Below, piece after piece: positions 39,104 through 57,411 of a stretch of DNA of 64,000 nt; positions within the stretch are counted from its first letter, which is position 1; every line of letters begins with the position of its first letter. The translations under genes and the position numbers were made by a program. The notes below the pieces were generated by a model. The model did not search any database, was not told where the DNA came from, and saw only the letters and a program-made list of their open reading frames with translations. The DNA comes from Brachyspira aalborgi (GTDB lineage Bacteria; Spirochaetota; Brachyspiria; Brachyspirales; Brachyspiraceae). Where the stretch lies: contig NZ_SAXU01000001.1 of the NCBI RefSeq assembly GCF_008016455.1, positions 1,054,001-1,118,000 of the forward strand. Direction: 5' to 3'.

Positions 39104-40165
39104 TTAATACTTATGTCCTGGCAAAGCCAAGAAACTCCACCAACGACTTGCATCGGTAAATGTAGTCGTATGATTAAGCAACGGAATTATAGTTTCTGGT
39201 CTTTGAGCTAAATACAATTTTTCATCCGTCATATAAGGATAATTTTGAGCCGTAAAACCGTCAATAGGCGGAGTCGCTCCTTCGCCAACTCTATAATTTC
39301 CATAATACGCATAATAAGAATCAACTCCCAAACAATAAGTATTTCCTTCATTAGCGTAAGGATTCAAAACTAAAACCTCCATAAAATTCGTGTTATAAAA
39401 CTGTCTAACAAATAGAGATGTATCCTGAGTAAATCCTCCAGCAAAAAACCAAATCATTTTGCGAGCTGCTACAAATTCATAAGCTCCATCTGTAGGTCCG
39501 CCTCCAGCATCCGCGAATAATCTTCTAGCTTCGTTTACATTTATAGCCATTTTATAAATAGCGCCAACCGTATATTCTCCCGTATGATGTATTACATCCT
39601 GATGAGTAACGCCCGCGTCAGGCTCCGTTCTCTCCTTTACGGTTCTATAATCTACTATAACAGCTCCGACAAATGTTTTAATTAAGTGTTCTTTTGCATA
39701 ATAGGTTTTATCTCCGCCTTTATAAACTATATCTCCGTTATCTTTAAAGTAATAATAATCGTATCTTGACTGACTTCCATGCTGTTTTTGAAAATTATTC
39801 ATATCTCTATCATTTGCTCTATTTCTAATGGCGAATACTTTTCCATCGCTTCTTCCTTTTCTCTGAATTTGGTCGAGCCATAATTGTTTTAATTTATTAG
39901 TATCTTTATAATTTACAGTATGATAACCGCTTCCTTTAGAATAAGGAACGAATATTCTATAGTATTCTGTAGCGTCAAATGGTAATTCAGGCGCAACATA
40001 ACCGCTATTAGTATAAGTAAAATTCGATACAATATCACCATTTTGGTCTAACAATCCTGTCTTCTGCGAATAAGAAACTTTCATAGGCTGATTATCGCAA
40101 GAAGCCATTAACATAGACATAATACATATAACGATAATCAAAAATAAATAAATCGATTTTCTCAT
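39104..40165 (-). CDS. paralogous lipoprotein 3 of 4 (unknown function)
   Basis: 353 residues from the ATG at 40165, which has GAGGGGG 9 bases upstream; a TTG frame to 40183 overlaps that site. Lipobox ...LMASC with the Cys at residue 22. Conserved blocks: YYRIFVPYSKG, KVFAIRNRANDRDMNNFQ, YYYFKDNGDIVYKGGDKT, FVGAVIVDYRTV, TGEYTVGAIYKMA, FIEVLVLNPYANEG-like block, and the C-terminus SRWWSFLALPGHKY. Its 3' end is nearly identical in DNA to that of paralogue 1. Confidence 0.72.
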   Translation of the reverse strand: MRKSIYLFLIIVICIMSMLMASCDNQPMKVSYSQKTGLLDQNGDIVSNFTYTNSGYVAPELPFDATEYYRIFVPYSKGSGYHTVNYKDTNKLKQLWLDQIQRKGRSDGKVFAIRNRANDRDMNNFQKQHGSQSRYDYYYFKDNGDIVYKGGDKTYYAKEHLIKTFVGAVIVDYRTVKERTEPDAGVTHQDVIHHTGEYTVGAIYKMAINVNEARRLFADAGGGPTDGAYEFVAARKMIWFFAGGFTQDTSLFVRQFYNTNFMEVLVLNPYANEGNTYCLGVDSYYAYYGNYRVGEGATPPIDGFTAQNYPYMTDEKLYLAQRPETIIPLLNHTTTFTDASRWWSFLALPGHKY

Positions 40166-40200
40166 TTTTAATTTCCCCCTCAATTCGAGTTATAACCTAA

Positions 40201-40235
40201 TTATGAAGCAATCCATTTTGTAGATTGCCTCATAA
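40201..40235 (-). other. 13-bp hairpin between two lipoprotein genes
   Basis: TTATGAAGCAATC (40201-40213) pairs with GATTGCCTCATAA (40223-40235) with one mismatch. No U-run follows on the minus strand, so it is more likely an RNA-processing or stability element than a terminator. Confidence 0.65.
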
Positions 40236-40246
40236 CTATAAATCTA

Positions 40247-41422
40247 TTAATATTTTTCCCCAGGCATTACCAAATAGGACCACCAGCGGCTTGCATCCGT
40301 ATAAGTAGTCGTATGACTAAGTAATGGAACTATCCACTCTGGTCTTTTACCCAAATATAATTTTTCATCCGTCATATAATGGATATTTTCCTCCGTAAAT
40401 CCGCTTACAGGCATCTCTCCTTCTCCGCTTCTATAATCTCCATAATAAGCGTAATAACCGTCTAATCCCATGCAATTTTCATTTCCTTCGTTAGCATAAG
40501 GATTTAAAACGAGAACCTCTATAAAGTCTGTAGAATAAAATTGTCTTATAAACATGCCTTTATCTTCTTGAATTCCATTATACCAAAACCATACTTGTTT
40601 ACGCGCCGCAATAAAATCGTAAACTCCGTCTAAAGCGCCTCCGCTTGCATCGGCAAATCTTTCTCTAGCATCGTTTACATCAATAGCCATTTTATAAATA
40701 CCGCCTACAGTATATTCGCCCGTATTAATTATTTGGTCTAATCCTCTTTTTGGAAGCTGACTCGTTCTTTTCTGCACAGTTCTATAATCTACTATAGTAG
40801 CGCCGACAAATTTTTTCACTAAAATCTCTTTATTTTTATCTATCTTATCTCCGCCTTTATAATATATATCGCCGTTATCCGCAAAATAGTAATAATCTTG
40901 TCTTCCTTCGTGAGACTTTTGGAAATTCATATTCTCATACCATTGTCCTCTATCATTCGCTCTATTTCTAATGGCGAATACTTTGCCATCTCCCGCACCT
41001 TTTCTCTGAATTTGGTCGAGCCATAATTGTTTTAATTTGTCCATATCTCTATAACTTACTGTAGCATAGTCGTTTCCATTTCCAGAATAAGGAACGCGAA
41101 GCCTGTAATAATCGGTAGGACTTTCAGGCAAATTTGGAAGAAAATAATTAGTCTCATATACAATATGGTAAACTGTAGTCGAACCATCCGTATTAGTTTT
41201 AATTATTGTAGCTCCAATTTTTTCATTAGTAGCCCAAATCGGAATATCATTAGTAAACCATGCGCTATTGGTATAACTCAATGAATTAGTTACCAAATTT
41301 CCGTTTGCATCCAACAATCCCGTTTGAGATAAACTTTCAATATTATCCTTGTCAGAACAAGAAATCGCTAAAAGTGCCATCGTAATAGTGGCGATTAAGA
41401 ATGAATAAACTGTTTTTATCAT
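40247..41422 (-). CDS. paralogous lipoprotein 2 of 4 (unknown function)
   Basis: 391 residues, the longest of the set because of about 50 extra residues after the signal (WFTNDIPIWATNEKIGATI). Lipobox ALLAISC with the Cys at residue 22. The shared blocks are present: YYRLRVPYSGNG, KVFAIRNRANDRGQWYENM, YYYFADNGDIYYKGGDK, FVGATIVDYRTV, TGEYTVGGIYKMAI, VLVLNPYANEGNE and SRWWSYLVMPGEKY. GGAGG precedes the ATG. Same direction as its neighbours, 15 bp after paralogue 1. Confidence 0.72.
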   Translation of the reverse strand: MIKTVYSFLIATITMALLAISCSDKDNIESLSQTGLLDANGNLVTNSLSYTNSAWFTNDIPIWATNEKIGATIIKTNTDGSTTVYHIVYETNYFLPNLPESPTDYYRLRVPYSGNGNDYATVSYRDMDKLKQLWLDQIQRKGAGDGKVFAIRNRANDRGQWYENMNFQKSHEGRQDYYYFADNGDIYYKGGDKIDKNKEILVKKFVGATIVDYRTVQKRTSQLPKRGLDQIINTGEYTVGGIYKMAIDVNDARERFADASGGALDGVYDFIAARKQVWFWYNGIQEDKGMFIRQFYSTDFIEVLVLNPYANEGNENCMGLDGYYAYYGDYRSGEGEMPVSGFTEENIHYMTDEKLYLGKRPEWIVPLLSHTTTYTDASRWWSYLVMPGEKY

Positions 41423-41437
41423 TTTTATCCTCCGTTT

Positions 41438-42427
41438 TTAATATTTATGTCCAGGCAAAGCCAAGAAACTCCACCAACGACTTGCATCAGTAAATGTAGT
41501 CGTGCGATTCAACAATGGAATTATATGTTCAGGTCTCTCGCCCAAATATACCTTTTCATCTGTCATAGGAGCTAATCCGCGCGGGCTATCGTATGCATAA
41601 TACGCATCAACTCCCAAACAATGTTCATTTCCTTCATTAGCATAAGGATTCAAAACAAGAACTTCAATAAATGTATCGTTATGATAATATCTTTTAAACA
41701 ATACAGATTTTGCGACAAATGCATCGCGATAGGTATATAGTTTTCTACGAGCCGCTATGAATTCATAAGTTCCGTCCGTAGGCGCTCCGCTTTCATCTGC
41801 AAATCTAGCTTGCGCTTGCCCTTCTGACATTCCCATTTTATAAATAGCTCCGATAGTAAACTCTCCCGTATTGTATATTTCATCATCCGACCAGTTTGCC
41901 GTTTGATAAACTCTTTTATGCACTCTTCTATAATCGACTATAACAGCTCCGACAAATCTCTTTATTAAAATTGAGCCTGTTGTATTAGTTTTATCTCCAC
42001 CTTTGTAATATATATCGCCATTATCCGCGAAATAGTAATAATCTTCTCTTCCATTATGAGAGTTTTGAAAATTATTCATATCTCTATCATTCGCTCTATT
42101 TCTAATAGCGAATACTTTTCCATCGTTTTCGCCTTTTCTTTGAATTTGGGCGAACCATATTTTGTTTAATCTGTTGGTGTCTTTATAGCTTACATTAAAA
42201 TAACCGTTCATTCCTCCAGCGTAAGGAACATAAATGTTGTAATAATCTAAAACATTATATGTGGTGTTCGCTGTATCATTTGTCTTATATACCGTATTTG
42301 TTTCGTATTTAATTATTGTTTCCGATTGCGATAACCTTACTGGATTTTCATTGCTTGTGCAAGAAATCACGCTAATAGCCGCCGCCATAATAACGGCAAT
42401 TAAAGACAAATAAATTACTTTTTTCAT
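41438..42427 (-). CDS. paralogous lipoprotein 1 of 4 (unknown function)
   Basis: 329 residues from the ATG at 42427; a TTG at 42442 in frame is part of the ribosome site (AAGGAGG). Lipobox AAAISVISC. It is the first gene of the cluster. Blocks: YYNIYVPYAGGMNG, KVFAIRNRANDRDMNNFQ, YYYFADNGDIYYKGGDKT, FVGAVIVDYRRV, TGEFTIGAIYKMGM, VLVLNPYANEGNEHC and SRWWSFLALPGHKY. I do not recognise the family; repeated Arg/Asn/Asp-rich and aromatic blocks suggest a binding surface. Confidence 0.72.
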   Translation of the reverse strand: MKKVIYLSLIAVIMAAAISVISCTSNENPVRLSQSETIIKYETNTVYKTNDTANTTYNVLDYYNIYVPYAGGMNGYFNVSYKDTNRLNKIWFAQIQRKGENDGKVFAIRNRANDRDMNNFQNSHNGREDYYYFADNGDIYYKGGDKTNTTGSILIKRFVGAVIVDYRRVHKRVYQTANWSDDEIYNTGEFTIGAIYKMGMSEGQAQARFADESGAPTDGTYEFIAARRKLYTYRDAFVAKSVLFKRYYHNDTFIEVLVLNPYANEGNEHCLGVDAYYAYDSPRGLAPMTDEKVYLGERPEHIIPLLNRTTTFTDASRWWSFLALPGHKY

Positions 42428-42770
42428 TTTATCCTCCTTCAAAAAGAACTAAATTTTTTTTTATTTAACAGTAATTATAAAAAACATTTATCCTCACTGT
42501 CTATCCTTAATTAACAATTTTTTAATAAAAGTCAAGAAAAAAATTCTATTTATTTAAAAAAAATTTACAAAAAATAAAATTATGAAGTAGTTTGATATAG
42601 TAAAATATCATTATAAGACATATCCTCAACAAAGCCAAGCTATCGATTTTTTACCGTAATTGTAAGCTATTAATGAAGCAATTCTAAATCAATTATTAAA
42701 TCTATTGATTAAAAAAAATAATATAATATAATAACTACTCTAATATTTAATATCAAAAAAAGAGTAGTAT
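42428..42770. other. divergent region between the lipoprotein cluster and purE
   Basis: 343 bp without a gene. On the minus strand TTGACT (42535-42530) with an A-run and TTGTTAATTAAGGAT (ending 42503) repeats the element at 19177 and probably drives the lipoprotein genes. AATCAAT...ATTGATT forms a weak hairpin near 42687-42711. I see no purine riboswitch. Confidence 0.6.
42734..42768 (+). promoter_or_regulatory. hairpin over the purE ribosome-binding region
   Basis: ACTACTCT (42734-42741) pairs perfectly with AGAGTAGT (42761-42768), two bases before the purE ATG. The only Shine-Dalgarno-like GAG is inside the stem. Confidence 0.55.
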
Positions 42771-47159: not shown

Positions 47160-48243
47160 TTATCCTTTCTTTGTTTTATTTATATTTTTCTTTATTTTAT
47201 TTTTGGCTTTTTCAATTTTATATTCTCTTCCAACCGATTTATAAATGAATCCCAATTTTTTTATTTCTATAAATTTAAGTTTTTCAAAATTAAGAATTTC
47301 GTTAGGCAATTCTTTTGCATATCCGTCCCAAATTATATCAATTCTTTCAAGATTAACCAAATTTTTAATTTCTTTTGGTAGTTCTTTTAAGTTTGCGCTT
47401 TTAATATGAAGGCTTTTAAGATTAATTAAATTTCCTATTTCTCTTGGAAGCTCTTTCATTTTATAACATTCTATTGTTAAATGTATTAATTTAGTAAAAT
47501 TTGCAAGCTCTTTTGGAAATTCCTTTAAGCTATAAGATGAATATATCTTAAAATATTCAAGGTTAATTAAATTCCCAAACTCTTTAGGAAATTTTTTTAA
47601 ATTACTTTCCCATAAAGTGAAATATTTTAGTTTTTTTAAATTTCCTATTTCATGAGGCAATTCTTTTAAATTTTCGCAAGCTATTTCTATATCTTCAAGT
47701 TTTGAAAAATTGCATATTTCTTTAGGCAGTTTTACTAATTTATCGCAACTTATTATAAGACTTTTAAGGTTAACAAAATTGGCAATTTCATTAGGAAGTT
47801 TTTCTAAATTTTCGCTTCTTAATTTCAAATTCTTTAAGATTAGTAAGATTAAATAATTCTTTCGGAAGTTCGTTTAATTTTTTACAACTTATTTCAAGTT
47901 TTTTAAGGTTAGTTAACTTCCCAATTTCTTTTGGCAATTTCTTTAATTTGCAACCGCGAAAACCTCCGATAGTAAGCTCTTCAAGATTAATTAAATTTCC
48001 AATATCTTTTGGCAACACTTTTAAGTTTATGGATTTTATATATAGTTCTTTAAGATTTACAAGTTTAAAAATTTCATTTGGAATATAAGAAAAATTTTTT
48101 TCCGCTCTAGATAATTCGCCAAGCGTAAGTTCTTTAATATCCAATAGCTTATTTTTATCTTTGGTTTTCAATTCTTTAATATCATATTTTTTAGCCCATT
48201 TGTTTAATTTTTCAATATCTTTTTTGGTTAAATTGTTTTGCAT
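47160..48243 (-). pseudogene. leucine-rich repeat protein split by a +1 frameshift
   Basis: Two overlapping frames, 48243-47791 (150 aa) and 47828-47160 (222 aa), make one LRR protein if one base is removed near 47825. The first frame runs NLTNLKEFEI and then leaves the repeat pattern (KKRKFRKTS, stop). The second continues it as SENLEKLPNEI. The restored protein would be 360 residues: a cap MQNNLTKKDIEKLNKWAKKY shared with its neighbours, then about 13 repeats of 23 residues. Without correction, the first product has only about four repeats, and the second would start at a TTG. It lies downstream of the nuclease gene. Confidence 0.75.
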
Positions 48244-48302: not shown

Positions 48303-49640
48303 TTATGCATTATCTAATTTTATATTATCTCTTAAAAATTCATATAATTCAATTATCTTATCGGCTATATCTTCAGCTTCATCTTTTTTAGTAGTATCAA
48401 TAAATTTGAGATAAACCCAACTACTTCCATATTCTGAACTTTCACCTTCTATACAATTATTAAGGATTTTAGTAATTTTATTTTTAATTTTATCAATATA
48501 TTTTAATTGATTAATAATATCAGGTTTTTCAGAAAAAACGCTTATGCATAAATGATAATCGAGACGCTGGTCTAATATTATATGAATATCATTATTTTTT
48601 CCTATTGGAATATCTATATTTAAAGAATATGAATCTCCAGAAGAAAACCTATAACTAACAAGTTCTTTAGATATAATATTAGCATAAATGCCTTTATTTG
48701 TTTTATATTCTTCCACAATTTTTCTTATATATGAATAATATTCTATATCTCTCGATACAAGATTAAGTCTTTTATTTGAAATTACTTTTTGGGCATTTTC
48801 CAATAACTCGTAAAATTTATTTAATTTATCAAAACTATCTTTTATTGGTTCGCCCTCGTTTATTAATGATTTAAGATTTAAAAAATCTTCAGTTATTTTT
48901 TGTTCCACTTTATTTTCCTCCGTTTCTTTACTTATAAATTTTTCGTTATCTCTTATTTGAATTAAAGCCGAATAAATCGACTGATATTTTTGTTCTTTTA
49001 AGAATTCGTATTCTTTATTATTTAAAATTTTATCTTCAATCCAATTTGACATATCGTCATGCGATAAATAATATATTTTATTTTCTTTTTCTAAATCTGA
49101 AATTAATTTTTTATCAATACTAAATTCTGACGGTTTATAACCGTATCGGGTTAAATAAACTACAAATATATTATCTTTAATAATTTTATTTTCATTAATT
49201 CTATTACTATAATAATCTTGCAATTGGTTTGGTTGGTCGCCAGCTCCAATTTTATTTTCAATTATTATTTCAAAATTATCGGACTGTATAAATAAATCCA
49301 TTCTACGCTTACTTTCGATTGAAGGATGCTCTTCGCTATAAACACTTATATTGGAAGAATTAATATTTACGCTATCGTTTCCTAATTTTTCTTTAATAAT
49401 ATATTCCGAAAAATCTTTTGCAAAATTTATTTCTTTATTATCATATTTAAATTTTATTTTAAGAATATTATATAATAGCGAACTATTTGAAACTTCATAA
49501 TATGTATTGCCCAAAATATTTATTATATTAACTATAGGAATTAATTTTTCTTTTGCCTCGTTTATACTTTCAAATATTTTGTCTCTATTTTCAATAATAT
49601 TTTTTAATAAATTAAGAGTTTGATTTTCTACTTCTGTCAT
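48303..49640 (-). CDS. PD-(D/E)XK nuclease-family protein A (PDDEXK_4 type)
   Basis: 445 residues. The nuclease core is visible: Asp115 in RRMDLFIQ, then Glu128-x-Lys130 in FEIIIENKIGAGDQ, with QLQDYY, which is the D...ExK plus Q-L-x-x-Y pattern of this superfamily. An N-terminal SSLLYNILKIKFKYDNKE and long helical parts surround it. Paralogue of the protein at 54413. Such proteins are common in defence and mobile islands, but their substrate is unknown. GGAGG precedes the ATG, and a candidate promoter lies at 49662-49687. Confidence 0.8.
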   Translation of the reverse strand: MTEVENQTLNLLKNIIENRDKIFESINEAKEKLIPIVNIINILGNTYYEVSNSSLLYNILKIKFKYDNKEINFAKDFSEYIIKEKLGNDSVNINSSNISVYSEEHPSIESKRRMDLFIQSDNFEIIIENKIGAGDQPNQLQDYYSNRINENKIIKDNIFVVYLTRYGYKPSEFSIDKKLISDLEKENKIYYLSHDDMSNWIEDKILNNKEYEFLKEQKYQSIYSALIQIRDNEKFISKETEENKVEQKITEDFLNLKSLINEGEPIKDSFDKLNKFYELLENAQKVISNKRLNLVSRDIEYYSYIRKIVEEYKTNKGIYANIISKELVSYRFSSGDSYSLNIDIPIGKNNDIHIILDQRLDYHLCISVFSEKPDIINQLKYIDKIKNKITKILNNCIEGESSEYGSSWVYLKFIDTTKKDEAEDIADKIIELYEFLRDNIKLDNA

Positions 49641-49715: not shown

Positions 49716-50510
49716 TTATTTAAAAATTTTACTTAAACTTAACCTTTTAATTCTAAATCTTTTAAATTTAGTTAAATTTTCAATTTCTTTTGGTAGATTT
49801 TTTATTTTATTACAATGACTTATCTCTAAATCTTTTAATTTAACTAAATTTATAATCTCTTTTGGAAATTCTTTTAAGTTATCTCCACGATTTATTTCTA
49901 AACGCTCAAGCCTAACTAAATTTACAATTTCTTTAGGAAATTTTGTTAAATTATTTAGCCATAAAGTAAAATCTTTAAGTTTTTTTAAATTTCCTATCTC
50001 TTTAGGCAATACTTTTAAACTTTTAGAACCTATAAGAATATATTCAAGTTTGATAAAATTACCAATTTCTTTTGGCAGTCTATCTAATTTATCGCACCTT
50101 ATTGTAAGTCTTTTAAGTTTAGTCAAATTTCCAATGTCTTTAGGCAATTCTTCTAAATTATTGCAGTTTATTAATAATTCTTTAAGATTAGTGAGATTGC
50201 ATATTTCTTTAGGTAATTCTTTTAATTTGTGGCAACTTATTTCAAGCCTTTTAAGATTAGTCAAATTTCCAATTTCTTTTGGTAGTTTTTTAATTGTGCC
50301 TCCGACAATATAATCTCCAATAATAAGCTCTTCAAGATTAATCAAATTTTCTATCTCTTTAGGCAATACTTTTAAATTTCTCGAAAATATATAGAGTTTT
50401 TTAATATTTAATAATTTATTTCTATCTTTTGTTTGCAATTCTTTAATATCATATTTTTTAGCCCAATTATATAAATTATTAATTTCTTTTTTTGTTAAAT
50501 TATTTTGCAT
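49716..50510 (-). CDS. leucine-rich repeat protein
   Basis: 264 residues from the ATG at 50510, with AAGGAG 7 bases ahead; a longer frame to 50540 overlaps the previous gene. Cap MQNNLTKKEINNLYNWAKKY, then about nine LRRs of 23 residues with consensus LPKEIGNLxxLKxLxIxCxxL. No signal peptide or membrane segment, so cytoplasmic. The gene upstream (sigma-LRR fusion) ends 12 bp before it, so they are co-transcribed. Confidence 0.85.
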   Translation of the reverse strand: MQNNLTKKEINNLYNWAKKYDIKELQTKDRNKLLNIKKLYIFSRNLKVLPKEIENLINLEELIIGDYIVGGTIKKLPKEIGNLTNLKRLEISCHKLKELPKEICNLTNLKELLINCNNLEELPKDIGNLTKLKRLTIRCDKLDRLPKEIGNFIKLEYILIGSKSLKVLPKEIGNLKKLKDFTLWLNNLTKFPKEIVNLVRLERLEINRGDNLKEFPKEIINLVKLKDLEISHCNKIKNLPKEIENLTKFKRFRIKRLSLSKIFK

Positions 50511-50521
50511 TTTATTTCTCC

Positions 50522-53182
50522 TTAAAAATTCCACCAGCATTTAATTTTAGATTCTCTAATCAGATTGCCTATTTTTTTCGGAGTTTTCTTCAAGTTAGCG
50601 CAATATTGCATATCCAATTTTTCAAGTTTAGTCAAATTAATAATTTCTTTTGGTATCTCTTTTATTCCGTTTCCATGTAAATCAATCCGTTCAAGTTTAG
50701 GCATGCTTAATATTTCTTTAGGAAATTCTTTTAACTTATCGCTTCTTATATCGATTCCTTTAATTATTTTCAAATTTTCTATCTCTTTAGGAAGTCTTTC
50801 TAAATTAGAACAGTCTAATCCAAGACTGCGAAGTTTAGTAAAATTTCCTATACTTTTTGGCAATTCTTTTAAAACTTCAGAATCCATACTAAAATATTCC
50901 ATTTTTAATAAATTGCCTATTTCTTCTGGAAGTTCTTTTAATTTATCGCAATACATTCTAACGCTATTAAGATTAATCAAGTTTCCAATCTCATGCGGTA
51001 ATTCTTCTAAACTATCGCAATCTATTTCAAATCTTTTAAGATTAACCAAATCGCCAATTTCTTTGGGCAACTCTTTTAAGTTGGAAGAGAAAATATCAAA
51101 TTCTTTGAGACTAATTAATTTCCCAATCTCTTTTGGTATTATTTTTAAATTTGAATTTTCGTTGAACGAATACTTTCCTAAACTAAATATTTTAAGATTG
51201 GCTAAATTTCCAATCTCGTTTGGTAAGTCTTTTAAATTTTCGCAATGTATATCAAGTTCTTGAAGGTTAGTTAAATTTCCAATTTCTTCAGGAATTTTTT
51301 CTAATTTCTCACACCATTCTATATTAAGTTTTTCGAGATTAACTAAATCGCCGATTTCTTTGGGGATATATTTCAAGTTTTTACAATGGTATATATTAAG
51401 ATTTTTGAGTTTAGTTAAACCATTAATTTCTTTTGGAATATATTTTAAGTTTGCGCACCATATATTAAGAGTCTCGAGATTAATTAAACATTTAATTTCT
51501 TTTGGAATATTTTTTAATTTATTTAGAGCTATTTCTAATTCTTTAAGATTGATTAAATTTCCTATTTCTTTGGGAATATGTTTTAAGCTTTCGCACCAAC
51601 TTATCTGAAGTTTTTCAAGATTAATTAAATCGAATAACTCTTTTGGAAGTTTCTTTGATTTGCGACAACAAATTGATAAATTTTTAAGATTGATTAATTT
51701 ATATATATTTTTTGGCAAATATTTCATATTATCGCATGATATATGAAGTTCCTCAAGTTTTGTCAAATTAGATATTTCATTTGGCAATTCCGTTAAACTA
51801 GCTCGCCATATATTAAAATTTTTAAGATTAACTAAATTTTTTATATCTTTTGGAATTTCCGTTATTTCACAATTTATTTCAAGGTTTTCGAGATTTGGCA
51901 AATAAAATATTTCTTTAGGCAATTCTTTTAAACCTTTGCATCGCACTATTTTAAGAGTTTTAAGATTTTTTAAATTTCCAATTTCTTTAGGAATTCCGTT
52001 AAAATCTTCAAATTCGCTATCTATTTCTAAATATTCGAGATTAATTAAATTTCCGATTTCTTTAGGCAAACATTTTAAAATTTCAACGGCTATAGAAAGT
52101 TTTTTTAAGTTAATTAAGTTTTCTATTTCTGCTGGCAATTCTTTCATGTATCCGTTATCGCCATACATCTCTAGAGTCCTTAATTTAGATAGTTTTAATA
52201 TTTCTTTTTGGAATTCAAATCCATCAAAATCAAATATTTCTAATTCGATATTTTTTATATTGTCTAAATCGTTTATTTTTTTATAATAACCTTTAAACTT
52301 ATTAAAATAGATTAAACGAATATTTTCAAGATTTTTTAAGTTAAATATTTCTTTAGGAAATTCTATTAACTCCTCGCAATATATAAAATTAAGAGTTTTA
52401 AGTTTTGTTAAATTGCTTATTCCATCGGTAAATTCTGCCAAAGAATAGCAGTCTATATTAAGAGTTTCAAGATTAACCAAGTTGAAAATTTCTTTTGGCA
52501 GAGTTTTTATATCGGAAAATTCTATCGTAAGTTTTTTAAGATTAATTAATTTTTCAATATCTTTAGGAAATTCTTCCAAAGAATAGCAGTCTATATAAAA
52601 ACTCTCGAGATTTGTAAGTTTGAAAATTTCGTTTGGCAAATAATCTATTTCATCAGAAACTATTTTAAGTTCTTTAATATCCAATATAATACTCAATATT
52701 TTTTCTTCTGTATCCAAATCTTCAATATTATACTTTTTCGCCCATTTGCATAAATTGTCGATTTCTTTTTTGGTTAAATTATTTATCATTTTATTTTCTA
52801 CCATTTCTAATTTTTTTATCTCTCTACGAACTGACTTTGGCAACCCATCCATTGCTCTGAATTCCTCAAATATAGCGCCTTGTATGCTCATGCTGGCATA
52901 AATTTCAAATTTTATATCGCTTTCGTTGTTTGGGTTATATCTATCTATCGCTTCCAAAAGTCCGAAAGAACCTAAATATACTAAATCCTCATAATCCAAA
53001 TTCTTAAAGCGTCCTTTTCCAATATTTCCTTTAATCTTATTAGCCGTATCTTCCAACAAATATTTATATTTAGTAATCAATGCTTCTCTTATTTGCGGAG
53101 ATAAAGTTTTTTTATATTCTATCCAATATTCTTTTTCGTTTTCGTTAGTAATAATAATTTTATTTATATTATTGTTTTTCAC
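50522..53182 (-). CDS. sigma-70 region 2 (FliA/WhiG-like) fused to a large LRR domain
   Basis: 886 residues. Residues about 18-128 match flagellar/WhiG sigma factors: EYWIEYKKTLSPQIREALI, LDYEDLVYLGSFGLLEAIDR, KFEIYASMSIQGAIFEEFRA and MDGLPKSVRREIKKLE, that is regions 1.2 to 2.4 and the start of 3. Regions 3 and 4 are absent. From Met132 (INNLTKKEIDNLCKWAKKY) it turns into the cap of the neighbouring LRR proteins and about 28 LRRs of 23-25 residues. The start is GTG at 53182 with AAGGA upstream. An internal ATG at 52789 lacks a ribosome site. Confidence 0.8.
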   Translation of the reverse strand: MKNNNINKIIITNENEKEYWIEYKKTLSPQIREALITKYKYLLEDTANKIKGNIGKGRFKNLDYEDLVYLGSFGLLEAIDRYNPNNESDIKFEIYASMSIQGAIFEEFRAMDGLPKSVRREIKKLEMVENKMINNLTKKEIDNLCKWAKKYNIEDLDTEEKILSIILDIKELKIVSDEIDYLPNEIFKLTNLESFYIDCYSLEEFPKDIEKLINLKKLTIEFSDIKTLPKEIFNLVNLETLNIDCYSLAEFTDGISNLTKLKTLNFIYCEELIEFPKEIFNLKNLENIRLIYFNKFKGYYKKINDLDNIKNIELEIFDFDGFEFQKEILKLSKLRTLEMYGDNGYMKELPAEIENLINLKKLSIAVEILKCLPKEIGNLINLEYLEIDSEFEDFNGIPKEIGNLKNLKTLKIVRCKGLKELPKEIFYLPNLENLEINCEITEIPKDIKNLVNLKNFNIWRASLTELPNEISNLTKLEELHISCDNMKYLPKNIYKLINLKNLSICCRKSKKLPKELFDLINLEKLQISWCESLKHIPKEIGNLINLKELEIALNKLKNIPKEIKCLINLETLNIWCANLKYIPKEINGLTKLKNLNIYHCKNLKYIPKEIGDLVNLEKLNIEWCEKLEKIPEEIGNLTNLQELDIHCENLKDLPNEIGNLANLKIFSLGKYSFNENSNLKIIPKEIGKLISLKEFDIFSSNLKELPKEIGDLVNLKRFEIDCDSLEELPHEIGNLINLNSVRMYCDKLKELPEEIGNLLKMEYFSMDSEVLKELPKSIGNFTKLRSLGLDCSNLERLPKEIENLKIIKGIDIRSDKLKEFPKEILSMPKLERIDLHGNGIKEIPKEIINLTKLEKLDMQYCANLKKTPKKIGNLIRESKIKCWWNF

Positions 53183-53221: not shown

Positions 53222-53260
53222 ATTATAACATATAACTAGTATTATATAATGATACTAGTT
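53222..53260 (-). promoter_or_regulatory. extended -10 promoter with 27-bp palindromic operator, copy 1
   Basis: On the minus strand TGT-TATAAT (53230-53222) lies just after a palindrome at 53260-53234: AACTAGTATCA, five bases, TAATACTAGTT (one arm mismatch). The palindrome covers the -35 region. It drives the sigma-LRR gene and those behind it. Confidence 0.75.
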
Positions 53261-53660: not shown

Positions 53661-54383
53661 TTAATCTTTTTTTTCTTTTATCACAATTTTTAATTCTACA
53701 TCCTTATTTTCATTATTAGGACTATCGACAATATACTTTAATAGTTCCTTATTATTATTATTTTTAATATCAAATTCAACTTTAAATTCTGATAAATTCC
53801 ATATCTCTTTAGGAAGCTCTTTTAAGTTAGAACATTTTATTTCTAACTTTTCAAGATTATTTAAATTCCCAATTTCTTTTGGAAGTTCATTTAAGTTGGG
53901 GCATGTTATATATAAATTTGTAAGATTATTTAAATTCCCAATCTCTTTAGGAAGTTCATTTAAGTTAGGGCATTCTATTTCTAACCTTCCAAGATTATTT
54001 AAATTCCCTATTTCTTTAGGAAGCTCTTTTAAGTTAGGACGTGTTATATGTAAATATTCAAGATTATTTAAATTCCCTATTTCTTTTGGAAGCTCTTTTA
54101 AGTTAGGACATCTTATTGTCAAACCTTCAAGATTATTTAAATTCCCTATTTCTTTAGGCAATTCAGTCAAGTCTTCTACCTCTATTCCGAGAAATTTAAG
54201 CCGATTAAGTTTAAAAACTTCCTTCGGAAGAGAATTTCTAGCAGCAATACCAGTAAGGTTTAAAATATCCTCTTTACTTTCTATATTTTCTTCATACACA
54301 TAACGAGAATTTTGCTTTTCTTCAAGTTTTGTAGCCCAAAAATATAAATTATTAACATCTTCAAGCGTTAAATTATTTGCCAT
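53661..54383 (-). CDS. leucine-rich repeat protein with near-identical repeats
   Basis: 240 residues: an N-terminal cap (MANNLTLEDVNNLYFWATKL) and about seven LRRs, five of which read ELPKEIGNLNNLExLxIxCPNLK with very little change, followed by an acidic/basic tail (VIKEKKD). The DNA units are 69 bp and almost the same, showing recent expansion. AGGAGAAATAAA precedes the ATG, the same leader as the other LRR genes. It follows nuclease gene B by 29 bp. Confidence 0.87.
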   Translation of the reverse strand: MANNLTLEDVNNLYFWATKLEEKQNSRYVYEENIESKEDILNLTGIAARNSLPKEVFKLNRLKFLGIEVEDLTELPKEIGNLNNLEGLTIRCPNLKELPKEIGNLNNLEYLHITRPNLKELPKEIGNLNNLGRLEIECPNLNELPKEIGNLNNLTNLYITCPNLNELPKEIGNLNNLEKLEIKCSNLKELPKEIWNLSEFKVEFDIKNNNNKELLKYIVDSPNNENKDVELKIVIKEKKD

Positions 54384-54412: not shown

Positions 54413-55720
54413 TTATTGAGTTATTTTTTCTTTTAATAAATTATATAAATCAATTATTTTCTGTCCTATTTCTTCGGGTTTGTCTTTTTCAATATCTATA
54501 TATAAAGTATAAATATATCCTCTATCTTCGTCTTCTTTATATTTATTGCTATCTTTACCAAGTATTTTTCCTATTTCGGTTTTAATCGGCTCTTCTCTTA
54601 ACTTATTTGCAATGTTATTATTCGCAATTATATTTATAAATAAATGATAATCAACGATATAAATATTCTGTTCTAAAGTTATGCATAAATCCAAGTAGCC
54701 TATTATTGAAATAAGTATATTCCTTGACCATATACCGTTAAATTGTCCTTTAATACCTTCTTCATTATATAAGAGAGCGCCTTTCATATAATCTTCGCCT
54801 TTATCAGATTGAACTTTTTTAATAAATTCGCTTACCTTCGATGAATATTTTATATTGCCAGATATAAGCTCGAATTTTTTATCTATAATTACTCTTTGAG
54901 CATTTTCTAACAATTCATAAAATTTGTTTAATTTATCAAAGCTATCCTTTATCGTTTCTTCCTTATTTAATAAATTTTCAAAATATTTATTCTCTTCAAA
55001 AAAATTTTTAATTTTTTCTTTTTTCATGTTGTTCTCCTCGTTTGGATTAGTTATAATTTTTTCGTTATCTCTTATTTGAATTAATGCGGAATAAATCGAT
55101 TGATATTTTTTATCGAATTTCAAAAACTCGTATTTATTTAAAATATCGTTTTCAATCCATTCGGCTATATCGCCGTGTGATAAATAATATATTTTATCTT
55201 TTAACTCTTCTTTTGTTTCTTTTGATATGCTATATTCTGACGCTTCATATTTCCATCTGGTTAAGTAAACTAAAAATATTTCTTTTTCTCCGTTATATCT
55301 ATCGTTATAATAATCTAATAATTGATTTTCTTGGTCGCCCGCATTTATTTTGTTTTCAATTATTATTTCAAATTTATCGAATACGATTAATATGTCAATT
55401 CTTCTGCCGTCTTTAGTTTGAAATTCTCTATATACATTTTTAAATTTAGCGTTTTTAATTTTATCTTTATATTCATCGCCAACAATATATAAAGAAAAAT
55501 CTTTTGCAAAATTTATTTCTTTATTATCATATTTAAATTTTATTTTAAGAATATTATGAAGTAAAGAACTATTTTTTACTTCGTCATAGGCGCAACCTAA
55601 AATATTTATTATATTAACCGTTGGAATAATTCTTTTCTTTGCCTCTTCAATATCTTTTTCAATTTTTTCTTTGTTTTCAATTAAACTTTTTAGCAAATCG
55701 ATTTGTTTATCTTCTGCCAT
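54413..55720 (-). CDS. PD-(D/E)XK nuclease-family protein B (PDDEXK_4 type)
   Basis: 435 residues, paralogue of the gene at 48303 over its length: SSLLHNILKIKFKYDNKE, Asp109 in GRRIDILI, Glu122-x-Lys124 in FEIIIENKINAGDQ, QLLDYY, then EFLKFDKKYQSIYSALIQIRDNEK. The C-terminal half (IGQKIIDLYNLLKEKI) is also shared. GGAGG precedes the ATG. It is paired with the LRR gene directly downstream, as nuclease A is with the split LRR gene. Confidence 0.8.
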   Translation of the reverse strand: MAEDKQIDLLKSLIENKEKIEKDIEEAKKRIIPTVNIINILGCAYDEVKNSSLLHNILKIKFKYDNKEINFAKDFSLYIVGDEYKDKIKNAKFKNVYREFQTKDGRRIDILIVFDKFEIIIENKINAGDQENQLLDYYNDRYNGEKEIFLVYLTRWKYEASEYSISKETKEELKDKIYYLSHGDIAEWIENDILNKYEFLKFDKKYQSIYSALIQIRDNEKIITNPNEENNMKKEKIKNFFEENKYFENLLNKEETIKDSFDKLNKFYELLENAQRVIIDKKFELISGNIKYSSKVSEFIKKVQSDKGEDYMKGALLYNEEGIKGQFNGIWSRNILISIIGYLDLCITLEQNIYIVDYHLFINIIANNNIANKLREEPIKTEIGKILGKDSNKYKEDEDRGYIYTLYIDIEKDKPEEIGQKIIDLYNLLKEKITQ

Positions 55721-55799
55721 ATAGCATACCTCCTTTATTAGATTTTAAACATTTGTAAAATTTTTTATGCATTTTTTACTCCTTAATAAAAATTTAAAT

Positions 55800-57011
55800 T
55801 TATAAATATTCTTTAGTTTTTTCAATACAAAACATTGCTTTATAAGCATCCATTTCATCATCTACTTCTAAAAGAATGTCATCTTCTGTATTTGTTTTAC
55901 TAATTCTTAATTTTAATAAATAATTGAAATCATGGAACTTTTTATATATTTCTAATATATCGGTAAGAGGCGCTAATACCATTATAGGATTTGTTTTTTG
56001 GTATGATTTTATCCATAATTTTTTATTAGTTATATATAATGTTCCTCTATACATTTCTCTAAATCTTCTATGTTCTTTATTGTCATAATATTCTGTAAGT
56101 CTTCTTATATCATCTATAATCAAAAAACAACCTTCGTCTTCTCCAAAAATATGGTCTAAATCGGTTTCTACAAAATATTTATTTTCTACATAGCCTACAA
56201 TTTCATTATAAATTTCATCCACTTTTTCTTCTTCTGCACGTCTTCTTTCTTCATCATTTTCTATACGCTCTCTATTAATATCAAAATATCTAATTTTTTC
56301 TTCTAAAATTTTTCTTAATACATTATCTTTTTCCGCCCATTTTTCAATTCCATTTTTTAGAAATAAGATTTTATCGTCTATTCCATCGATTTTATTTAAA
56401 TGAACTTCTATTACATTAGTATATAAAACTTTTATTTTTTCTCTATCTTTTCTTGACAATTTGCCAAATTCGTTTTGTAAATATAAAATTTCATCATCTA
56501 TTCCTTCAATTTTTGCTAAATTATATTTAATTAAATTCATATATAAAAAATTTGTTTTTTCTCTATCTTTTCCTGATAATTTTGAAATTTCATTTTGTAA
56601 ATATAAAATTTTGTCGTCTATTCCATCGATTTTATAAAAAATTAGATTAAATTTTCTTTCAAAATTAATCATTTTAATTTTTTTAATAGTTTTTATAAAA
56701 TATAAAATAGATAATATAATGGTAATAAGACATATTGTTAATAAAAATATGCCAAATTCTTTCATATCTTCATCGCTATGTTTTAATAATGAGAAAGCTT
56801 CATAAGTTATTGGTAAAACTATTGAATATGTAATAAGCACAAAAGCAAATTTCTTCTCATAAGTGTCTTTTCTACGAAGTATAATTCTAAGAAATGTTAA
56901 ATCAATTATAGCAAAAAGTATCATTTTAAATTCTGACTTCATACCAGATATTGCCCCTATATAAATTAACAAAGCGGCATATATTATTGACATTTTAGTA
57001 AATCCACGCAT
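55800..57011 (-). CDS. membrane protein with three helical repeats and PH/GRAM-like tail
   Basis: 403 residues. Four hydrophobic segments (about 8-25, 29-46, 54-72, 87-108) come first. Then three copies of a 38-residue unit centred on KIDGIDDKILYLQNEISKLSGKDREK follow, then a charged coil and a C-terminal beta-rich part (MYRGTLYITNKKLWIKSY, LLKLRISKT) that looks like a PH or GRAM domain, ending in a helix. No family known to me. It lies between the zinc-finger and nuclease B genes in one unit. Confidence 0.65.
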   Translation of the reverse strand: MRGFTKMSIIYAALLIYIGAISGMKSEFKMILFAIIDLTFLRIILRRKDTYEKKFAFVLITYSIVLPITYEAFSLLKHSDEDMKEFGIFLLTICLITIILSILYFIKTIKKIKMINFERKFNLIFYKIDGIDDKILYLQNEISKLSGKDREKTNFLYMNLIKYNLAKIEGIDDEILYLQNEFGKLSRKDREKIKVLYTNVIEVHLNKIDGIDDKILFLKNGIEKWAEKDNVLRKILEEKIRYFDINRERIENDEERRRAEEEKVDEIYNEIVGYVENKYFVETDLDHIFGEDEGCFLIIDDIRRLTEYYDNKEHRRFREMYRGTLYITNKKLWIKSYQKTNPIMVLAPLTDILEIYKKFHDFNYLLKLRISKTNTEDDILLEVDDEMDAYKAMFCIEKTKEYL

Positions 57012-57372: not shown

Positions 57373-57411
57373 ATTATAACATATAACTAGTATCATACAG
57401 TGATACTTGTT
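57373..57411 (-). promoter_or_regulatory. extended -10 promoter with 27-bp palindromic operator, copy 2
   Basis: On the minus strand TGT-TATAAT (57381-57373) sits beside a palindrome at 57411-57385: AACAAGTATCA, five bases, TGATACTAGTT (one arm mismatch). Geometry and most bases equal copy 1 at 53222-53260. It drives the zinc-finger gene and those behind it. Confidence 0.75.

Follow-up and report, generated by a model that had tools for sequence, protein, structure and literature searches.

Sigma homology limited to domain 2 is known from the SigO-RsoA and gp55/gp33 systems, in which the domain-2-only protein (RsoA of B. subtilis, PMC8103513; gp55 of phage T4, PMC2988020) works with a partner that takes the role of domain 4. 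In ECF sigma factors of the ECF41/SnoaL type a further domain comes after the sigma module within a single chain, although these proteins with C-terminal regulatory extensions retain both domains 2 and 4. Repeats of 23 residues with the pattern LPKEI..L..L build the LRR proteins LIC11098 and LIC12759 of Leptospira (PDB 4u08 and 4u09). Here we describe an open reading frame of Brachyspira aalborgi in which homology to the FliA/WhiG (sigma-28) family, extending across region 2 to the first residues of region 3.0, is joined to repeats of this kind. Unlike SigO-RsoA and gp55/gp33, which have a domain-4 partner and no LRR, it carries an LRR array, and no such partner was found at its locus; relative to the Leptospira proteins it adds an N-terminal sigma region 2 and an M-x-NNLT-type cap found in this lineage. 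A first-pass annotation of the DNA knew of no described sigma-LRR fusion, and our search of open-access papers likewise returned no description of one; going by that literature, the domain combination was not found described.

Results and discussion

A sigma region 2 is joined in frame to a complete LRR protein

The fusion is encoded at positions 53182-50522 on the minus strand of the window, the whole 64,000-nucleotide stretch that was analysed, and comprises 886 codons from a GTG start codon, ahead of which lies a plausible ribosome-binding site, with no internal stop. Profile and structure matches recovered both halves, confirming the in-frame fusion of sigma region 2 and LRRs proposed in the first-pass annotation. 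The sigma part and linker (Table 1) precede an LRR protein that is complete in itself (residues 132-886).

Table 1. Features of the fusion gene and its surroundings, in window coordinates
Feature	Position	Strand	Basis
Second PDDEXK_4 nuclease, PDC-S26-like	54413..55720	-	Pfam 1.5e-16, PADLOC 1.1e-22
Upstream LRR gene (MANNLTLEDV..)	53661..54383	-	Pfam
Operator/promoter-like element	53222..53257	-	39 nt upstream of the fusion GTG; pattern search
Sigma part, residues 1-126: region 2 (1.2/2.1-2.4) and first residues of region 3.0	52805..53182	-	NCBIfam WhiG, PDB, tree
Linker MVENK, residues 127-131	52790..52804	-	Leader alignment with nine LRR genes
LRR N-terminal cap (MINNLTKKEIDNLCKWAKKY..), from internal ATG	52643..52789	-	B. 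catarrhinii cap identity, omega
LRR solenoid, about 29 repeats of 22-25 residues	50570..52642	-	LRR_14, AlphaFold2, Foldseek
C-terminal tail and stop of the fusion ORF	50522..50569	-	ORF; next LRR gene starts 11 bases after the stop
Downstream stand-alone LRR gene, same family, strong ribosome-binding site	49716..50510	-	ORF, Pfam
PD-(D/E)XK nuclease (PDDEXK_4), PDC-S26-like	48303..49640	-	Pfam 7.5e-22, PADLOC 1.7e-23
LRR gene in two frames (47791-48243, 47160-47828), probably broken	47160..48243	-	ORFs

Residues 1-131 match the NCBIfam models NF004935 (WhiG, 1.3e-33) and TIGR02479 (FliA_WhiG, 1.8e-20), at scores below the curated full-length cut-offs (116.7 versus 343 bits; 73.7 versus 189.6). 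The sigma part also matches solved WhiG/FliA structures (6pfj, 6.5e-16; 1rp3, 2.8e-8) and the two full-length FliA proteins of the same genome (3e-37 and 3e-30; 54% and 49% identity). The check suggested earlier, Pfam Sigma70_r2, gives 19.7 bits for the fusion protein and so formally falls under its 24-bit cut-off, an outcome that the first pass had listed as refuting, but the sigma homology is beyond doubt because the WhiG/FliA models, the structures and the organism's own FliA proteins all match. The homology had been assigned to the N-terminal 130 residues through region 2.4; region 2 is present as stated, and the match extends slightly further, taking in the first residues of region 3.0 (..LPKSVRREIKKLE, which includes LPKSVRR). 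It stops at residue 126 and LRR sequence follows, leaving the protein with neither region 3 nor region 4, and the missing region 4 noted in the first pass is real. A search of the genome with regions 3-4 returned both complete FliA proteins and, away from this locus, weak matches within frames of 195-594 aa. No region 3/4 remnant survives beside the fusion locus, and a split sigma factor with a separate domain-4 partner encoded there was set aside.

Conserved FliA positions are retained at 14/18 sites in regions 1.2-2.1, at 9/13 in region 2.2, at 9/16 in regions 2.3-2.4 and at 6/10 beyond, and by this alignment erosion is even across the sigma part, with region 2.2 no better kept. Residues R74, D81, R84 and R91 of E. 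coli FliA, which we take to be conserved -10-recognition residues, correspond in the alignment to S, E, R and K in the fusion, i.e. one is retained, two are changed conservatively and one is lost. By the same numbering, the R76 equivalent is Q, the D112 equivalent is kept, and the position of R74, serine in the fusion, is isoleucine in the paralogue from B. catarrhinii described below. AlphaFold2 was uninformative for the sigma part (pLDDT below 50, with only two alignment rows covering it). A weak MzaA hit (0.16) was also seen.

The LRR half matches LRR_14 at 1e-102. By motif it holds 26 strict repeats plus degenerate ones, and the AlphaFold2 model shows about 29, so the earlier count of 28 was a fair one. 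Most repeats of the modelled solenoid have pLDDT values of 85-97, and Foldseek matches it to LIC11098 of Leptospira (4u08). LIC11098 and LIC12759 are the best bacterial matches by both sequence and fold, with LIC11098 the closest solved structure. Tandem LRRs forming a solenoid place the fusion among the bacterial LRR proteins.

The linker is probably a translated ribosome-binding leader

Nine stand-alone LRR genes of this genome and B. catarrhinii start at M-x-NNLT and carry the leader (A)GGAGAAA(A)TAAA directly before that start. The fusion's internal ATG (52789) is the homologous start codon, and the DNA in front of it, ATGGTAGAAAATAAA, aligns with the nine leaders and is read as MVENK before M-INNLT. 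The first-pass annotation had put the junction at 52789; that position is the first base of the internal ATG, and the exact junction falls in residues 127-131. From this alignment the linker appears to be the LRR gene's old ribosome-binding leader, now translated, and since the junction DNA aligns with the nine leaders, the LRR and its leader would have been captured as a unit, the leader having weakened since. The cap that follows is 69% identical to that of a stand-alone B. catarrhinii LRR gene.

The predicted ribosome-binding energy is -5.6 kcal/mol at the GTG and -3.6 kcal/mol at the internal ATG. One alternative is that a single frame yields two products, with the LRR protein still started at the old internal ATG and the sigma piece a non-functional read-through leader. 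The homology of that ATG to the starts of nine relatives and its weak ribosome-binding match fit this alternative, but the match is weaker than that of the GTG and those of the neighbouring LRR starts (-4.1 to -9.2 kcal/mol), and the frame upstream of the ATG has stayed open; we consider it quite unlikely. With this ribosome-binding site of the LRR weakened, translation as a single chain is the likelier outcome.

An assembly or base-call artefact joining two genes would account for a fusion confined to one genome, and LRR arrays are repetitive. The sequence around the junction, however, is not repetitive and belongs to a contig of 2.49 Mb; with the leader merged to the exact codon and no break anywhere in the frame, an artefact is very unlikely.

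Both halves persist as separate genes in B. catarrhinii

The fusion is present in 1/26 Brachyspira genomes, namely this one, so that the conservation across the genus proposed as a check was not borne out. Among 296 spirochaete genomes there was no other FliA-type match with a comparable frame among the matches listed. A FliA-type match in a frame of 485-501 aa, with one TAG reported, was seen in two spirochaetes of one family (G193:C1:1719348 and G262:C42:39122). A contig scan for relatives gave no match, its repetition with the B. catarrhinii protein matched only B. catarrhinii, and a scan of viral contigs found no relative.

In B. catarrhinii each half has homologues that stand as genes of their own: strain Z12 has a sister sigma gene (NZ_SJDU01000011.1; sigma paralogue on contig 19) and stand-alone LRR genes that closely resemble the LRR half of the fusion. 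The two sigma sequences are 80.7% identical in DNA over the promoter and region 2, and the tree pairs the sigma part of the fusion with the B. catarrhinii paralogue (support 100/99). This paralogue encodes 218 aa with a scrambled tail that holds region-4-like pieces without region 3. It adjoins an LRR gene that is the counterpart of the upstream LRR gene in Table 1, a PDDEXK gene, a GRAM-like gene and mraY; in the window mraY lies about 13 kb away from the LRR/PDDEXK island, and the region has therefore been rearranged.

In several Brachyspira a degenerate tandem fliA copy stands directly beside intact fliA (loci L035, L036 and L037; genomes G004, G013, G014 and G021). Some of these copies are open (302-312 aa, with region 3 moved behind region 4) and others contain stops, and the pattern appears to be one of repeated birth and decay of fliA paralogues. 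The second complete FliA (L003/L055, G000:C1:1388938-1389732) is 68% identical to the first and adjoins a thioredoxin gene; it was not seen in the other Brachyspira genomes searched.

The sigma half keeps its frame under almost no amino-acid constraint

When the sigma half is compared with its B. catarrhinii counterpart, omega is 0.63 (bootstrap 0.29-2.3), a value that is based on 105 codons of one species pair and covers mostly pre-fusion time. In likelihood tests 2dlnL is 1.3 against an omega of 1 and 19.5 against 0.106, the value that true fliA gives between these two species. Substitutions are evenly spread across the codon positions of the sigma pair (18/17/21). The LRR half, over its first 106 codons, has an omega of about 0.20, and fliA and other core genes fall at 0.014-0.12, with several dS values saturated. 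By these estimates there is seemingly almost no amino-acid constraint on the sigma half, its omega being indistinguishable from 1 and clearly unlike that of fliA.

The sigma frame is open in both species, for which a neutral simulation expects a probability of about 0.001-0.002 at the estimated dS of 0.34, and of 0.03-0.045 at a dS of 0.15. Frame conservation indicates that the sigma half matters somehow, if only for keeping the LRR translated; a frame that is kept while its amino acids drift is as expected if the frame serves mainly protein making and not sigma chemistry. A dead pseudogene was rejected, as both frames are open beyond neutrality and the promoter element is conserved. Horizontal transfer, considered in view of the low dS of the sigma pair, was dropped because local core genes have similar values (tmk 0.31, mraY 0.50).

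These data also bear on the first-pass reading of the protein as a ligand-gated sigma factor, in which LRR-bound ligand steers RNA polymerase and transcription is initiated without -35 contact. Such a factor could build on region 2, the start of region 3.0 and the retained equivalents of R84 and D112. Regions 3 and 4 are nevertheless lacking, region 2 is eroded at the equivalents of R74, R76, D81 and R91, no separate region-4-only partner lies near the locus, and evolution is near-neutral (omega about 0.63, versus 0.11 for true fliA) in a gene found in one species only. The fusion departs from the FliA/WhiG family in the absence of regions 3 and 4, in its partly changed -10-contacting residues and in its lack of fliA-like constraint, and on regions 3-4 and constraint it falls outside that family. 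Of the earlier interpretation, the genuine fusion without region 4 stands, whereas a working ligand-steered sigma factor is extremely improbable.

A 36-bp element links the fusion to LRR and nuclease loci

The operator/promoter-like element upstream of the fusion has the 36-bp sequence AAGTATCAnTGTATGATACTAGTTATATGTTATAAT, an inverted repeat around GTATCA..TGATAC followed by an extended -10 (TGTTATAAT). At up to 3 mismatches it occurs five times in this genome (in the window at the position in Table 1 and at 57373-57408; elsewhere at G000:C1:2157114, 1691055 and 1668830) and four times in B. catarrhinii (positions include L034:12994 and L090:1038), with no occurrence in 24 other Brachyspira and none for a reversed control pattern. 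Besides the fusion, copies stand ahead of the upstream zinc-finger/GRAM/PDDEXK/LRR run, of two more LRR or PDDEXK loci and of a TM2-protein gene; the genes that they precede in B. catarrhinii include the unfused sigma gene and an LRR gene. Because the element is common to these loci, the fused gene belongs to a lineage-specific, apparently co-regulated set, which looks like a small unnoticed regulon.

Upstream of the fusion follow a small zinc-finger-like ORF, the LRR gene, the second PDDEXK_4 nuclease and a GRAM-like gene. The two neighbouring PDDEXK_4 genes match PDC-S26 candidates, which the fusion itself does not, and PADLOC had no model match for the LRR proteins or the fusion. By way of this candidate family, the co-regulated LRR/PDDEXK loci look like anti-phage defence. 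An LRR-PDDEXK pairing across the genus was rejected, as in other Brachyspira no LRR genes adjoin the nuclease.

Compared between the two species (window 54413-57011 with L034:13849-16393), the island is a mosaic, in that flanking genes have a dS of 0.22-0.34, the LRR and PDDEXK genes in between have reached saturation and B. catarrhinii has a split GRAM-like gene. A frameshift divides the LRR gene at 47160-48243 into frames of 150 aa and 222 aa, suggesting turnover of the LRR cluster.

A model for the origin and role of the fusion

We consider it reasonably probable that this is a young, species-restricted fusion whose product is an LRR binding protein of a defence-like regulon, with the sigma half a passenger or, at most, a weak docking tag. 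The history began with a duplication of fliA followed by decay of the paralogue, which, as the relatives show, was present in the lineage shared by this species and B. catarrhinii and lay in an LRR/PDDEXK island under its own operator/promoter-like element. A deletion, as the leader DNA suggests, may then have taken away the half of the paralogue that carried regions 3-4 and placed region 2 in frame with the LRR leader. Transcription of the joined gene would start from the conserved promoter element and translation from the GTG, giving a single cytoplasmic protein of 886 aa, which is probably a repeat protein preceded by a sigma remnant and not a working sigma factor. The solenoid and the selection on it are consistent with the LRR doing the biochemical work, as a binding scaffold among the co-regulated LRR/PDDEXK loci, and sigma region 2 may be a tolerated passenger with possible residual affinity for core RNA polymerase and without promoter selection.

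A different role would be docking on RNA polymerase, or acting as a decoy, with region 2 gripping the beta' coiled-coil of the core and the LRR bringing or sensing a partner, e.g. a phage factor. Such a protein would block or tag polymerase without promoter choice, like T4 gp55 without gp33 or a sigma mimic, and region-2-only precedents exist in gp55 (PMC2988020) and in RsoA and PhyR (PMC8103513). The 9/13 positions kept in region 2.2, the frame open in both species beyond neutral expectation and the location in a PDC-S26-like island with a common regulatory element are compatible with it. Retention in region 2.2 is nonetheless no better than the 14/18, 9/16 and 6/10 of the other segments, omega is not below 1 and the fusion is absent in other Brachyspira. 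The decoy proposed in the first-pass annotation gains nothing from core-binding region 2.2, which is no better preserved than the rest, and a docking or decoy role is unlikely. Distinctly doubtful is the fuller version, an anti-phage or stress sensor in which the captured region 2 tethers the LRR to core RNA polymerase, recognition of a ligand or phage protein by the LRR blocks or redirects transcription, and a dedicated operator co-regulates the gene with PD-(D/E)XK nuclease/LRR loci.

Under the favoured reading of a young fusion, a new bacterial domain architecture has been caught early, through fliA duplication, decay, deletion and LRR capture via the LRR gene's own ribosome-binding leader, and these steps can be read directly because homologues of both parental genes persist unfused in the sister species. 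If the sigma half still binds polymerase, the fusion would be a new way to tether a recognition domain to transcription; if it does not, the protein cautions against taking every long open frame with two recognisable domains for a designed two-domain protein. The 36-bp element offers a testable handle on the previously unnoticed LRR/nuclease regulon.

Elsewhere in the window, at 39104-42442 on the minus strand, stand three tandem paralogous lipoprotein-like genes of 334-391 aa.
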